Shown here in pieces: positions 33,503 through 38,095 of a DNA stretch of 44,279 bases. The first letter of the stretch is position 1. Each line of letters opens with the position of its first letter. The stretch comes from Chloroflexota bacterium. Lineage in GTDB: Bacteria > Chloroflexota > Anaerolineae > Aggregatilineales > UBA3940. The translations under genes were made by a program, and so were the position numbers. Location of the stretch: contig JAADYX010000111.1 in NCBI GenBank assembly GCA_010092885.1, forward strand, positions 1-44,279, given 5' to 3'. The notes beneath the pieces are model-generated. The model was not told the DNA's origin. It ran no database searches and saw only the letters and a list, made by a program, of their open reading frames with translations.

Positions 33503-33529
33503 ATTGAATGGGTCACCCCACGGATGAAA

Positions 33530-33558
33530 AGTATACCCCACGGCATCCTGGTTTACAA
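33530..33558 (-). promoter_or_regulatory. Promoter of tRNA-Pro
   Basis: Minus strand TTGTAA, exactly 17 bp, TATACT. The predicted start lies about 20 nt before the mature 5' end, leaving a short leader for RNase P. Confidence 0.8.
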
Positions 33559-33606
33559 GAGAACCGCAGTGCGAAGATCGCCGCGAGGATGTATGATGGG
33601 GTCATC

Positions 33607-34194
33607 ATGACCGACAAGATGACCTTTACGGATAGACTGCGCCGTGCCACTGACGGCATCGTGAACCCGGTGGCACGCGGATTGGCCAAGGCCGGGGTGC
33701 GCCCGGCCATGCTTACCACGTTGGGGGCCTTCCTGACATTGGTGGCCGGGGTGCTGGCCGCTGCCGGATTATTCCGGATTGCCGGGTTGGCCCTGCTGCT
33801 CGGAGCCCCCTTTGATGCGATCGATGGTGCGGTGGCCCGTGCCCTCAACCGCGAAACGGACTTCGGTGCGCTTCTCGATTCAACGTTTGATCGCTACAGT
33901 GACGCTTTTGTTTTGGGCGGCATCGCCCTGTGGATGGCCCGGTCCGGAGCGCAGACCGGGGTTGGCCTGGCGATTGCCGCGCTCTTTGGGGCGGTGATGG
34001 TCAGCTACCTGCGCGCGCGCTCCGAGGGGTTACGGATCGATAACAGAATCGGCCTGATGACCCGTGTGGAACGCACCCTTGTGCTAATCTTGATGTTGGC
34101 CTTGCAGCAGGTGATGATCGGCCTGTGGATTTTGGCTATCTTTACACATGTAACGGTCGTTCAGCGACTCCTGTATGCCAGAAAGCAGTTATGA
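33607..34194 (+). CDS. CDP-alcohol phosphatidyltransferase (phospholipid head-group synthase)
   Basis: 195 residues from ATG 33607; an in-frame ATG at 33589 is also possible. The full active-site signature is present: D70xxDG74xxAR78, then G87xxxD91xxxD95, within six membrane helices. The enzyme swaps CMP of CDP-diacylglycerol for an alcohol in the membrane. Short proteins of this type include phosphatidylinositol-phosphate, phosphatidylglycerophosphate and cardiolipin synthases; the acceptor cannot be decided here. Its stop overlaps the start of the next gene (ATGA), opening a five-gene coupled operon. Confidence 0.87.
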   Translation: MTDKMTFTDRLRRATDGIVNPVARGLAKAGVRPAMLTTLGAFLTLVAGVLAAAGLFRIAGLALLLGAPFDAIDGAVARALNRETDFGALLDSTFDRYSDAFVLGGIALWMARSGAQTGVGLAIAALFGAVMVSYLRARSEGLRIDNRIGLMTRVERTLVLILMLALQQVMIGLWILAIFTHVTVVQRLLYARKQL

Positions 34195-34943
34195 TCAACA
34201 TCGGTCCGTTGACCATTCAGGCCTTCAGCCTGATCATACTGGCTGCCGCCGCCGCTGCCGCAACGGTGACCGGTGTGCTCGCGGCCCGGGTGGGGCTCTC
34301 GCTGCGCCGTGTGCTGGATATGGTGATCCTGGCCTTGCTGTTGGGGATCGTGTTCGCCCGCCTCGATTTTGCCCTGAACCCGCCGCCATCCGTGCGGACC
34401 TACTACGATGCGGCGTGGTTCTACAGCCACATCTTTGACTTTCAGGCCGGGCTGGTCGCGGTGTGGAATGGGGGCATGGGCCGGGCCGGTGCGCTCATCG
34501 GGGCGATGGCGGCCATCGCGCTCAACGTGTGGCGTGATGACGCGGACTGGGCGCAGTGGGCAGGGCCCATCGCGTGGGGCACGCTTGCATGGTTCGTAAT
34601 CGCGCCGTGGGCCAACGTCACAACCGGGCATCTGTTCGGGCCGCCCGTGCCCTGGTCAGCAGCGGGCCACCCGACCCCGGTCTATGTATCGGTGTGGGCT
34701 TTGCTGACAGGCATCGCCGTCTGGACATTCGGGCGGGGCACACAGCGTGTGCCCTGGCTGATTGCGCTTTCGCTGTCGGTTGGGCTGTTCCTGTCGGATT
34801 TTCTGCGTGTGGACATGGGCCGCGTGCTCGGCCTGACGAGTTTGCAAATCACACTGCTGGCTGCTGGAATCGTGCTGGCAGTCACATTCTATTCTGAGAT
34901 GAGGCGTCATGATCGAAACGAACGGGCTGACCAAACAATTTGA
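34191..34943 (+). CDS. Lgt-like membrane protein lacking key catalytic residues
   Basis: 250 residues, about seven membrane helices, from ATG 34191. The pattern follows prolipoprotein diacylglyceryl transferase: FARLDFALN (Lgt: GARLxYV), VWNGGMGRAGALIG (WxGGLSxHGGxxG), ANVTTGHLFGPPVPW (GRxGNFxNxExxGxPTxxPW), AGHPTPVY (HPTQLYE) and SDFLRVDMG plus LTSLQ (ExFRxPD, GxTxGQ). The catalytic His of HGG is Ala here, and the Arg of GRxGN is missing (APWAN). The later Arg (FLR) is kept. It is therefore unlikely to be a normal Lgt and may act on, or bind, another lipid substrate. A true lgt is probably elsewhere in the genome. Confidence 0.65.
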   Translation: MINIGPLTIQAFSLIILAAAAAAATVTGVLAARVGLSLRRVLDMVILALLLGIVFARLDFALNPPPSVRTYYDAAWFYSHIFDFQAGLVAVWNGGMGRAGALIGAMAAIALNVWRDDADWAQWAGPIAWGTLAWFVIAPWANVTTGHLFGPPVPWSAAGHPTPVYVSVWALLTGIAVWTFGRGTQRVPWLIALSLSVGLFLSDFLRVDMGRVLGLTSLQITLLAAGIVLAVTFYSEMRRHDRNERADQTI

Positions 34944-35823
34944 CGATCTGCTCGCCGTCGACTCGGTGACTTTGCAGGTTGAGCCGGGCGAGGTGCTGGC
35001 CCTGCTCGGGCCGAACGGCGCGGGCAAGACAACCACCGTCCGCATGCTGACCTCCATCCTCAAGCCGACCGCCGGGTCCGCTTCCGTGGCGGGTTACGAC
35101 GTGGTCAAACACGCCCAACAGGTGCGGGCCCATGTCGGCATCCTGACGGAGGCACACGGCCTGTATCTGCGGCAGGCGGGCCGTGAGTATCTGGATTTCT
35201 ACGGTGCACTGTACGGCATCGAAGCCGGCCAACGCGCACGCCGTGCCGAACGCCTGACTGAGCGCTTCGGCCTGTTGGAGGCCCTCGATCGTCGCATCGG
35301 CGAATACTCCAAGGGGATGCGGCAGAAGCTGGCACTTGTCCGTGCTTTGCTCCACGATCCCCCCGTGCTGCTGCTTGACGAGCCGACCTCTGCCATGGAT
35401 CCGCACAGTGCCCGGCAGGTGCGCGATGCGATCAAGGATCTGCGCGGTGATGGCCGCTGCATCATCCTGACCACCCACAACCTCAACGAGGCAGAAGAAC
35501 TCGCCGACCGGATCGCCATTATCCGCAAGGGCACCATTGTCGCGCGGGGCACCCCTCTGGAACTCAAGGCGCGTTTGCTCGGTCCCCCGCTGCTGGAGGT
35601 GCGCTTCGGCGGTGAGGTCAACGGCCTGGTTGAGAACATGGCCGACCTCGTCGAGATCGACAGCCACGGACACAACTGGGTCCGCTACCGGACGCCGGAA
35701 CCATCCCGCACCAATCCGATCCTCATCAAGCAGCTTGCCGCTGAAGGTGTGGATGTGGTCACGCTCAGTGAAGTCTCGCAGAGCCTGGAAGAGGTCTATC
35801 TGCGCGTAGTGAATGAGAACTAG
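34909..35823 (+). CDS. ABC transporter ATP-binding protein
   Basis: 304 residues. Walker A is LLGPNGAGKTT (residues 33-42), the Q-loop region GILTEAHGLYLRQ, the signature YSKGMRQK (variant of LSGGQ, usual in DrrA/CcmA/NatA-type exporters), Walker B VLLLDEPTSAMDP and the H-loop ILTTHNLNEAEELADR. It powers the permease encoded next. The start overlaps the Lgt-like gene by 35 bp. The C-terminal ~90 residues form an extra domain like that of NatA-type ATPases. Confidence 0.95.
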   Translation: MIETNGLTKQFDDLLAVDSVTLQVEPGEVLALLGPNGAGKTTTVRMLTSILKPTAGSASVAGYDVVKHAQQVRAHVGILTEAHGLYLRQAGREYLDFYGALYGIEAGQRARRAERLTERFGLLEALDRRIGEYSKGMRQKLALVRALLHDPPVLLLDEPTSAMDPHSARQVRDAIKDLRGDGRCIILTTHNLNEAEELADRIAIIRKGTIVARGTPLELKARLLGPPLLEVRFGGEVNGLVENMADLVEIDSHGHNWVRYRTPEPSRTNPILIKQLAAEGVDVVTLSEVSQSLEEVYLRVVNEN

Positions 35824-35825
35824 CC

Positions 35826-37334
35826 ATGCAGACGATGCTAACGCCCACATCCATAGAAGAGACGCGCAGTCCGTTTGTCCGCTGGCTGCTGCTGACCCGC
35901 TGGAACCTGGCCCGCGCCCTGATCATCACCCGGCGTGAGGTCACCGACATGCTGCGTGACTGGCGCATCCTGGCCCCGATCTTCATCCTGACGGTTGTTT
36001 TCCCCTTCATCGCCAATTGGGGCGCCGGGCGCATCGTGAACTACGTTGAGCAGTTCGAAGCTGCCATCATCGGGGAACGCCTGATTCCCTTTCTGCTGTT
36101 AGTGGTCGGCTTCTTTCCGATCTCCTTCTCGCTGATTATCGCGCTGGAAAGCTTCGCCGGGGAGAAAGAGCGGCGCAGCCTGGAACCCCTGCTGGATACA
36201 CCGCTCACCGATCTACAGCTGTATATCGGCAAGATCCTGGCGTCGGTCGTGCCGCCGCTGGCGGCCAGCGCCCTGGGGATCACGGTCTACCTGGTCGGGG
36301 TGTTCATCAGTGTCGACTACCGCCCACCGCTTATTCTGCTTGTGCAGGTCTTCAGCCTGACGGCCATGCAGGCCATCCTGATGGTGGCGGGGGCGGTGGT
36401 GGTCTCCAGCCAGGCGACCAGCGTGCGAGCGGCCAATCTCCTGGCGAGTTTCATCATCATACCGGTGGCGTTTCTCATTCAGCTGGAAGCCTTTATCATG
36501 TTCCTGGCAGCCTACAGTGTGCTGTGGTGGGTGCTGCTGGGCATTGTGGTGATCACCGTGGTGCTCCTGCGGATGGGTGTGCGCAGCTTCAACCGCGAAG
36601 AGCTGCTCGGCCGTGATATCGACGAACTCGATCTCTATAAGGGCATGCGCAGGCTCGGCGCGATGATTGTGGCCAAACGTGACGATCCGGCGCAGCGGCG
36701 TTCGCCGTGGGCATGGTACCGCGATGAAGTGCTTGCCCAGGTGCCCCGCCTGTGGATGCCTGCTCTGCTGACGCTGGTTAGCATGGGGATATCCCTGGTT
36801 GTCGGCATCCAGTACGCCGAACAGTTCCCCATCCCGGAAGAGATGGTGGCTGTTGAAGACTGGGAAGAGCAGTTCCCCACCCTGCTCGGTGAGGCCGGCC
36901 TGACGGGCGTCGGCGGCGTGGTGCGAGTCGTCTTCCAGAATGCCCGCGCTATCCTGATCGGTGGCGGGTTGGGCATGTTCACCCTGGGGATCGGTATGGT
37001 GCTTGTCGCGATGCTGCCCTTCGGCATTATCGGGTTTGTCTTTGCGCAGGTAAGCACGCTGGGCATCGACCCGAGCCTGCTCTATGCTGCGCTGATCCCG
37101 CACAGCATCATCGAGATACCGGCTATCCTGCTCGCGTCGGCGGCCTTCATCCGGCTGGGTGCCAGTGTGATCGCACCGCCGCCAGACAAGACCATCGGCC
37201 AGGGGTGGATGGTTGCGCTCGCTGACACAATCCGTCTGAGTGTGGGGCTTGTGCTGCCTTTGTTCATCATCGCGGCGGTGATCGAAGTGTTCATCACGCC
37301 GCAGATCGTGTTGAGCCAGGCGGCTGGCCTGTGA
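35826..37334 (+). CDS. ABC-2 type permease fused to a SpoIIM (DUF95)-like membrane domain
   Basis: 502 residues. Residues 25-260 form an ABC-2/NatB-like permease: an ITRREVTDMLRDWRI start, a first helix, a long loop with ESFAGEKERRSLEPLLDTPL, and five or six helices. After a charged linker (about 255-300), residues ~305-500 form a second membrane domain with NARAILIGGGLGMFTLGIG and PHSIIEIPAILLASAAFIRL. That pattern is the SpoIIM/DUF95 signature (HGxxElpAI). SpoIIM proteins assist membrane or wall remodelling in sporulation and occur in non-sporulators with unknown roles. It lies 2 bp after the ATPase and overlaps the MBL gene by 4 bp. No sporulation gene is near. Confidence 0.8.
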   Translation: MQTMLTPTSIEETRSPFVRWLLLTRWNLARALIITRREVTDMLRDWRILAPIFILTVVFPFIANWGAGRIVNYVEQFEAAIIGERLIPFLLLVVGFFPISFSLIIALESFAGEKERRSLEPLLDTPLTDLQLYIGKILASVVPPLAASALGITVYLVGVFISVDYRPPLILLVQVFSLTAMQAILMVAGAVVVSSQATSVRAANLLASFIIIPVAFLIQLEAFIMFLAAYSVLWWVLLGIVVITVVLLRMGVRSFNREELLGRDIDELDLYKGMRRLGAMIVAKRDDPAQRRSPWAWYRDEVLAQVPRLWMPALLTLVSMGISLVVGIQYAEQFPIPEEMVAVEDWEEQFPTLLGEAGLTGVGGVVRVVFQNARAILIGGGLGMFTLGIGMVLVAMLPFGIIGFVFAQVSTLGIDPSLLYAALIPHSIIEIPAILLASAAFIRLGASVIAPPPDKTIGQGWMVALADTIRLSVGLVLPLFIIAAVIEVFITPQIVLSQAAGL

Positions 37335-38095
37335 CACCCCGCCTCGTCATCCTGGGGACGGCGGCCGTGGGCCCCGATGTGGACCACGAGAACACGCACA
37401 TGGCCTTGGAAGGCACCAACGGCGTCTATCTCATCGATTGTGTGGGCCTTCCGTTGGCGCGCCTAAAGCACGCAGGCATCGACCACGAGAAACTGCGCGG
37501 CATCATCCTGACGCACTTCCACCCCGATCATGTGGCAGCCGTCCCCGGACTGCTGCTCTCCTTGTGGATCATGGGGCGAACCGACCCCCTGCACATCTAT
37601 GGGCTGAGCCACTGCCTGAACCGAGTCGAGCAGATGATGGGCTTCTACCACTGGGAAAAGTGGAACGGGTTCTTCCCGGTCGTCTTTCATCATCTGCCCC
37701 CGCGGGAGGGCGTGCAGCTCCTTGACACGACCGATTTCACGATCTATGCCTCACCCGTACGCCATTACGTGCCGACCATCGGCGTGCGGGTGGTGGTCAA
37801 ACAAACCGACTACATCATGGCCTACTCCGGTGATACCATTCCATGCCCGGAGACTGTGCGCCTTGCCTACAACGCCGACCTGCTGATCCATGAGGCAACC
37901 GGTGACGAACCGCTCGGGCATTCCAGCGCAGCACAGGCAGGGGCCATCGCCAAGGAGGCGCGCGCCAAGCGCCTCGGGCTGATCCACTACCCGGTGTGGA
38001 ACGCCCGCACCGCCCATCTGGTCGATGAGGCACGGGCAACGTTCGGCGAGCGGGTCTTTTTGTGTGAGGATATGATGTCTATCCCGCTGGGGTAG
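37331..38095 (+). CDS. Metallo-beta-lactamase-fold hydrolase (RNase Z-like)
   Basis: 254 residues from GTG 37331, overlapping the permease stop (GTGA). The metal motif is THFHPDH (H62, H64, D66, H67), with further ligands in SPVRHYVPTIG, YSGDT and LGLIHYP. The YSGDT and RHYVPTIGVRV segments resemble the RNase Z/arylsulfatase branch. It lacks an obvious tRNA-binding exosite, so it may cleave a phosphodiester or sulfate ester rather than tRNA. Its position, coupled to a lipid-synthase and ABC-exporter operon, suggests work on an envelope metabolite; that is inference. Confidence 0.82.
   Translation: MTPRLVILGTAAVGPDVDHENTHMALEGTNGVYLIDCVGLPLARLKHAGIDHEKLRGIILTHFHPDHVAAVPGLLLSLWIMGRTDPLHIYGLSHCLNRVEQMMGFYHWEKWNGFFPVVFHHLPPREGVQLLDTTDFTIYASPVRHYVPTIGVRVVVKQTDYIMAYSGDTIPCPETVRLAYNADLLIHEATGDEPLGHSSAAQAGAIAKEARAKRLGLIHYPVWNARTAHLVDEARATFGERVFLCEDMMSIPLG

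Follow-up and report, generated by a model that had tools for sequence, protein, structure and literature searches.

In the window analysed here, a stretch of 44,279 nucleotides of DNA from a Chloroflexota bacterium, the open reading frame at 35826..37334 (+ strand; same coordinates as in the first-pass annotation of this DNA) encodes one chain of 502 aa in which an ABC-2 permease half is joined to a C-terminal SpoIIM/DUF95 domain, and this fusion is real and kept as one chain across many families of the window's phylum. The fused protein is probably the membrane subunit of an envelope exporter, with the SpoIIM domain as an accessory module beside a type V transporter.

The first-pass annotation had suggested a survey of homologues with and without the fusion. 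When 301 sampled genomes of the phylum were searched at the protein level, matches were obtained in 101 genomes and both halves in 67 (a hand count from the match list, based on a query span of 350 or more residues and including the split-frame case G015; all 67 were re-read by script), whereas both halves in one chain occurred in 0 of 299 genomes of a Clostridia-centred sample (76 with any match) and in 0 of 296 genomes of an Actinomyces-centred sample (32 with any match). A tblastn search for the fusion in plasmids gave no match. According to the script, 41 of the 67 chains have the architecture ABC2+SpoIIM and 26 are tandem chains of the type ABC2-ABC2-SpoIIM; in the tandem chains L056 and L058, Pfam analysis recognised two PF12679 stretches and one SpoIIM domain each.

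Pfam analysis of the separate halves, together with a NosY-like model of the N-terminal half, bore out the domain assignments of the first-pass annotation, which had proposed an N-terminal ABC-2 part and a C-terminal SpoIIM/DUF95 part and HMM searches of both. The SpoIIM/DUF95 domain (36783..37301, + strand; residues 320-492) was matched by PF01944 on the whole protein with an E value of 4e-16 and 59.8 bits, and SpoIIM was the sole Pfam match of the C-terminal half by itself, with 62.2 bits. As the cut-off is 26.9 bits, a chance SpoIIM match is ruled out. The N-terminal half by itself matched ABC-2 families and lacked SpoIIM. On the whole protein the ABC-2 Pfam models span residues 33-252 and lie barely above their cut-offs, with narrow margins for ABC2_membrane_3 PF12698 (32.4 bits, cut-off 31.6) and ABC2_membrane PF01061 (28.8 bits, cut-off 26.9), and the type V ABC-2 transmembrane half (35910..36617, + strand; residues 29-264) is assigned from Pfam, the structural match to NosY and hydropathy taken together. 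A hydropathy scan of the alignment predicted six membrane segments in the ABC-2 half and five, starting from residue 313, in the SpoIIM half; positive charge precedes segment 1 and is also found in the linker joining the two halves, so the linker should be cytoplasmic. A PDB sequence search revealed no relative (best E value 0.058).

An AlphaFold model of the whole protein, built from 9 input sequences, had a mean pLDDT of 80.2 and a pTM of 0.68, with an unreliable relative placement of the halves. Comparison of model residues 29-260 using VIA-align gave NosY (7o0z_E) with Z 18.8 (218 aligned residues, rmsd 3.1), followed by CcmB (Z 16.3) and ABCG5/8 (Z 15.0), the ABCG-type exporters as a group reaching Z 13-15. 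Foldseek with the whole-protein model gave nothing under an E value of 0.001 (best 9e-3, probability 1.00). Judged by this modelled fold, the N-terminal half is a type V (NosY-like) transporter subunit, and the label exporter, taken from the fold class, is likely to apply to the fused protein. NosFY/NosDFY and CcmB resemble the N-terminal half in fold and also in having a separate ATPase gene. Unlike the fused protein, the solved NosY chains (246-275 residues) have no SpoIIM part, and none of the neighbours of the fusion, named by reading the gene stretches instead of by family search, was recognised as a nos or ccm gene.

The partner of the fused permease is a DrrA-like ABC ATPase of 304 aa (34909..35823, + strand; PF00005 108 bits), which stops 2 bases short of the start of the permease gene and reaches 284 bits against TIGR01188 drrA, under the cut-off of 312. 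In 64 of the 67 fusion genomes the gene immediately before the fusion, on the same strand, codes for an ABC ATPase, and mostly the two genes overlap by a few bases. The remaining three genomes, G198, G230 and G094, all of one genus (g86; loci L091, L093 and L197), have an ATPase 57-59% identical to that of the window at a distance from the fusion: in G198 and G230 it shares contig and strand with the fusion and is located about 25-26 kb upstream of it, and in the third genome it is on a different contig.

The conservation of the fusion, with an ABC ATPase gene as its neighbour in 64 of 67 genomes, is an argument that the SpoIIM domain cooperates with ABC transport. This part of the first-pass proposal, that DUF95 proteins work with ABC transport, stands but is not new: the link is already in print for bacteriocin clusters, and the fusion is new support for it. 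According to passages of PMC7132975 and PMC6131525, SpoIIM/DUF95 proteins occur in nearly every circular-bacteriocin cluster, encoded next to the ABC transporter genes, and are thought to form a complex with the ABC transporter, and in the case of leucocyclicin Q, deletion of the DUF95 gene lcyD leaves the mature peptide inside the cells (citing Mu 2014). The first-pass annotation saw no clear role for DUF95 proteins other than in sporulation, which these clusters and the lcyD deletion contradict, as far as those passages report them. SpoIIM/DUF95 spans bacteria and archaea; its role is settled for spore engulfment alone and partly studied for bacteriocin release, and the fusion adds weight to the view that this little-understood domain aids ABC pumps.

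The fused permease and the ATPase encoded upstream would most likely assemble into a transporter with a pair of ABC-2 domains and a pair of ATPases. As a homodimer, the window form would contain two SpoIIM domains, while its tandem relatives have two ABC-2 domains and one SpoIIM per chain. The SpoIIM domain would lie beside the pore without forming it, its five predicted membrane helices holding conserved polar residues, and would help a hydrophobic cargo to leave or cross the membrane, by analogy with the bacteriocin clusters in which SpoIIM is needed for peptide release. The cargo may be a lipid, a lipoprotein or a membrane-active peptide. Counting against an accessory role modelled on the bacteriocin systems, the lipid-enzyme neighbours found in one class point away from bacteriocins. 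No circular-bacteriocin precursor was recognised among the open reading frames of 80 or more aa around the fusion, although precursors can be shorter.

The closest solved folds of the N-terminal half, NosY and CcmB, are parts of maturation machines and not classical exporters. The locus could then encode a mechanical device comparable to NosDFY or CcmAB-type machines, in which motion passes from the ATPase through the ABC-2 half to SpoIIM, and SpoIIM acts on a partner in the envelope; the recruitment of SpoIID/SpoIIP to the septum by Bacillus SpoIIM, as described in an excerpt of PMC5898192, would fit such a device. However, ABCG-type exporters match nearly as well, so the rank of the folds does not decide, and no extracytoplasmic partner gene was recognised beside the fusion in all families (the tally covered the profiles of the window's neighbours). 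We consider this alternative unlikely, if still the best of those weighed here against the accessory exporter subunit.

A second alternative takes SpoIIM for the other half of the transport path, so that one ABC-2 + SpoIIM chain would be a complete pseudo-dimeric pore. It extends a published suggestion for ABC ATPases without a membrane domain of their own, namely that SpoIIM is the membrane anchor of the ATPase in bacteriocin clusters (from a part of PMC7132975), and the predicted numbers of segments are similar, five in SpoIIM and six in ABC-2. The tandem architecture makes such a pore improbable, as the chains of 26 of the 67 fusion genomes already have two ABC-2 domains, equal to two pore halves, plus one SpoIIM domain. 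If one chain makes one transporter, which assumes that a tandem chain does not pair again, SpoIIM would be needed once and would not be a pore half. Also, the model of the SpoIIM half alone (pLDDT 84.8, pTM 0.77, 9 input sequences) showed no ABC-2 fold match; its best values (Foldseek E 1.2, VIA Z 6.2) are within noise, corresponding to no solved relative, and are not proof of a different fold. At least here, the fusion is at odds with the published view of SpoIIM as a substitute for the membrane domain of the transporter, and, with both ABC2+SpoIIM and ABC2+ABC2+SpoIIM fusions available, one protein and one ATPase would suffice to test whether SpoIIM is pore or helper.

A set of N, H, E and E, which was derived in this analysis and is no curator's definition, is common to fused and free-standing SpoIIM domains, and the window protein has all four. 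In an alignment of 125 domains (129 loci, from which L089, L127, L129 and L130 were dropped for want of a domain of 150 or more residues), N372 (codon 36939..36941, + strand) is conserved in 125/125. In the motif H426-x-x-x-E430 (PHSIIE; 37101..37115, + strand), H is present in 117/125 domains and E in 125/125, and E487 (codon 37284..37286, + strand) is conserved in 123/125. The N is placed in predicted membrane segment 2 of the domain, HxxxE in segment 4 and the last E in segment 5. All eight domains lacking the H belong to family f30, where H is replaced by N in 8/8 rows and R374 by L, so the polar set is incompletely kept there. Members of f30 (L063, L064, L065 and L103-L107) are compact fusions, of 443 aa as called in 4 of 8 loci, with longer open frames in the remaining loci. 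The DUF95 protein from the bacteriocin cluster of a Priestia plasmid (L207) aligned over the same motifs as the fused domain (hhalign E value 1.5e-10) and shows N, PHGIFE and E at the conserved positions.

The loss of H throughout f30, and the fact that neither fold nor partners assign a function to the domain, would suit a third alternative, according to which the fusion is a historical accident and SpoIIM a membrane anchor without a part in transport. This seems very improbable, given that the fusion is kept in many families of the phylum, that N and the E of HxxxE are invariant in 125/125 aligned domains and that chains have doubled their ABC-2 part yet retained SpoIIM.

Since the window comes from a 431-contig assembly and the frames split in two in G046 and G015 show that errors or decay can occur, a merger of two genes by assembly or gene calling was also considered, and its probability is negligible in view of an unbroken frame in 65 of 67 fusion genomes, seven of them single-contig assemblies (G005, G112, G118, G134, G166, G208 and G238). 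Assembly error is thereby ruled out. The first-pass annotation had named a missing SpoIIM match and an assembly merger as the outcomes that would overturn its reading; instead, the match was found and the fusion recurs.

More broadly, SpoIIM/DUF95 could be a general partner of type V ABC transporters. The N of helix 2, the HxxxE of helix 4 and the E of helix 5 would then make up a working site within the membrane at which the cargo is handled; a lipid- or membrane-bound product might, for instance, be released or modified there, with the ABC part providing the drive. We offer this as a tentative and rather doubtful generalisation. If it were true, circular bacteriocins, and perhaps SpoIIM in sporulation, would follow the same logic, and no system would show the role of SpoIIM more simply than the Chloroflexota fusions with their 1:1 and 2:1 forms.

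The origin of the fusion was studied with trees of both domains. In the ABC-2 domain tree, built from 47 chosen loci, a branch (95/89) separates the 13 unfused domains from all 45 fused rows. The SpoIIM tree, for which 59 of the 125 domains (a partly random subset) and 5 plasmid proteins were used, has the fused rows together with the free family f33 on one side (97/91) and, on the opposite side, free copies from Chloroflexota, Clostridia, haloarchaea and a bacteriocin cluster. Neither the fused SpoIIM rows alone as one clade (p-AU 0.53) nor the 22 copies of the tandem form as one clade (p-AU 0.17) were rejected. The trees are compatible with one fusion event, which would produce such a division of the ABC-2 domains.

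The genome of the window has a second, free SpoIIM gene (L070, C270) beside MoxR-like, DUF58 and RDD genes. As free Chloroflexota copies form a branch of their own (100/96) and L070 is in the other branch of the SpoIIM tree, the fused domain does not derive from this paralogue, which is ruled out as its source. Free-standing SpoIIM is often found away from ABC genes, as in the cases of L070 and L051. The latter is one of the f33 loci (L051-L055), which encode a free SpoIIM of 242 aa grouping with the fused domains, and is located beside Peptidase_M24 (pepP-like) and EF-P genes. A split three-gene operon of this family was not found among the three closest free ABC-2 genes of the Clostridia-centred sample (G305, G475 and G582), where, in the stretches read, an ATPase gene adjoins and SpoIIM does not.

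In the window's class (26 fusion genomes out of 38 sampled, by hand count from the match list), a gene order recurs that consists of a CDP-alcohol phosphatidyltransferase, an Lgt-like protein, the ATPase, the fusion and an MBL hydrolase. The transferase (33508..34194, + strand), similar to archaetidylinositol- and phosphatidylinositol-phosphate synthases, is upstream in 24 of the 26 genomes, and the Lgt-like membrane protein (34188..34943, + strand; PF01790 72 bits) precedes the ATPase in 21 of them. In 17 of the 26 the fusion is followed by the RNase Z-like MBL-fold hydrolase (37331..38095, + strand), whose frame in the window shares 4 bases with the end of the permease frame. These counts were obtained with neighbour profiles (LGT, CDP-OH, MBL, ATPase) that were built from the same loci and seeded with the window proteins, and they include G192, whose upstream side is cut by a contig end, as well as G080 and G240 with little downstream sequence. 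In the other 41 fusion genomes, the stretches read showed no transferase, Lgt-like or MBL gene apart from an MBL gene in G019. The transferase, the only PF01066 gene found in the window's genome, scored 144 bits as archaetidylinositol-phosphate synthase (cut-off 180) and 131 bits as phosphatidylinositol-phosphate synthase (cut-off 170). This lipid-gene neighbourhood hints at a lipid or lipoprotein cargo in the window's class. Further neighbours of the fusion are genes that, from reading and not from family searches, we take to be MazG-like and Lon-like.

The Lgt-like copy lacks the GRWGNFxNQELYG-type motif that its counterparts L034, L035, L036 and L038 keep; counterpart L076 has it as GRFANF, and the nearest relative, L033, is also altered. 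Because the window's genome holds two better Lgt matches elsewhere (C412 and C48), the copy beside the transporter may be a non-enzymatic relative.

A literature search, outside which subscription journals and domain databases lay, found no published description of an ABC-2/SpoIIM fusion. The ABC-2 + SpoIIM architecture may well be listed in InterPro. Three features are new relative to searchable papers: the permanent fusion itself, its tandem form with a 2:1 ratio, and the neighbourhood of lipid genes (phosphatidylinositol-phosphate-synthase-like and Lgt-like) in one class. The nearest parallel is the exporter of the plantacyclin/gassericin A group, which likewise has an ABC ATPase (PlcT), an ABC-2 permease (PlcE) and a SpoIIM/DUF95 protein (PlcD) together, in that group as three separate proteins (as given in part of PMC7452424). 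In contrast to this group, the two membrane parts are here in one chain, with lipid-gene neighbours and in a different phylum.

Similarly, spore-former SpoIIM and COG1300/arCOG01994 proteins share PF01944 with N, PHGxxE and E, as in the fused half. Unlike spore-former SpoIIM, the window protein is fused, has its own tree side with f33 and is not a member of the sporulation SpoIIM equivalog TIGR02831 (cut-off 100.2 bits), to which it gave no match at E values up to 1; an f33 copy and a free copy from Clostridia scored 22 and 30 bits, respectively. For archaeal SpoIIM relatives, a role in membrane remodelling was predicted by Makarova and colleagues, as summarised in a section of PMC5898192.

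Two other fusions follow a comparable plan. NF041647, an ABC permease fused to a CPBP intramembrane protease, also has an ABC-2 half and then a second membrane domain, which is CPBP there and SpoIIM here, and matches on the ABC-2 part were far under its cut-off of 435 bits (fused protein 23 bits, tandem L056 55 bits). Haloarchaeal plasmid proteins of 489-518 aa named stage II sporulation protein M (L208-L211) have a C-terminal SpoIIM domain fused to another membrane region, which is weakly DUF7847-like (17-22 bits, cut-off 28.7), unlike the ABC-2 half of the window protein. At L209 and L211, a hypothetical protein of 267-275 aa precedes this SpoIIM fusion.

On other plasmids SpoIIM is a separate gene. 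The Priestia plasmid (L207) and a Listeria innocua plasmid (L214) have it with circular-bacteriocin and ABC ATPase genes. In a Geobacillus plasmid (L213, 3896-5139), a SpoIIM gene annotated as hypothetical adjoins an M48 peptidase gene, and bacteriocin clusters bearing peptidases, which resemble this arrangement, are mentioned in a portion of PMC8659200. In a Methanomethylovorans plasmid (L215), a SpoIIM gene is followed about 2.8 kb downstream by an ABC-2 permease gene (PF12679 107 bits).
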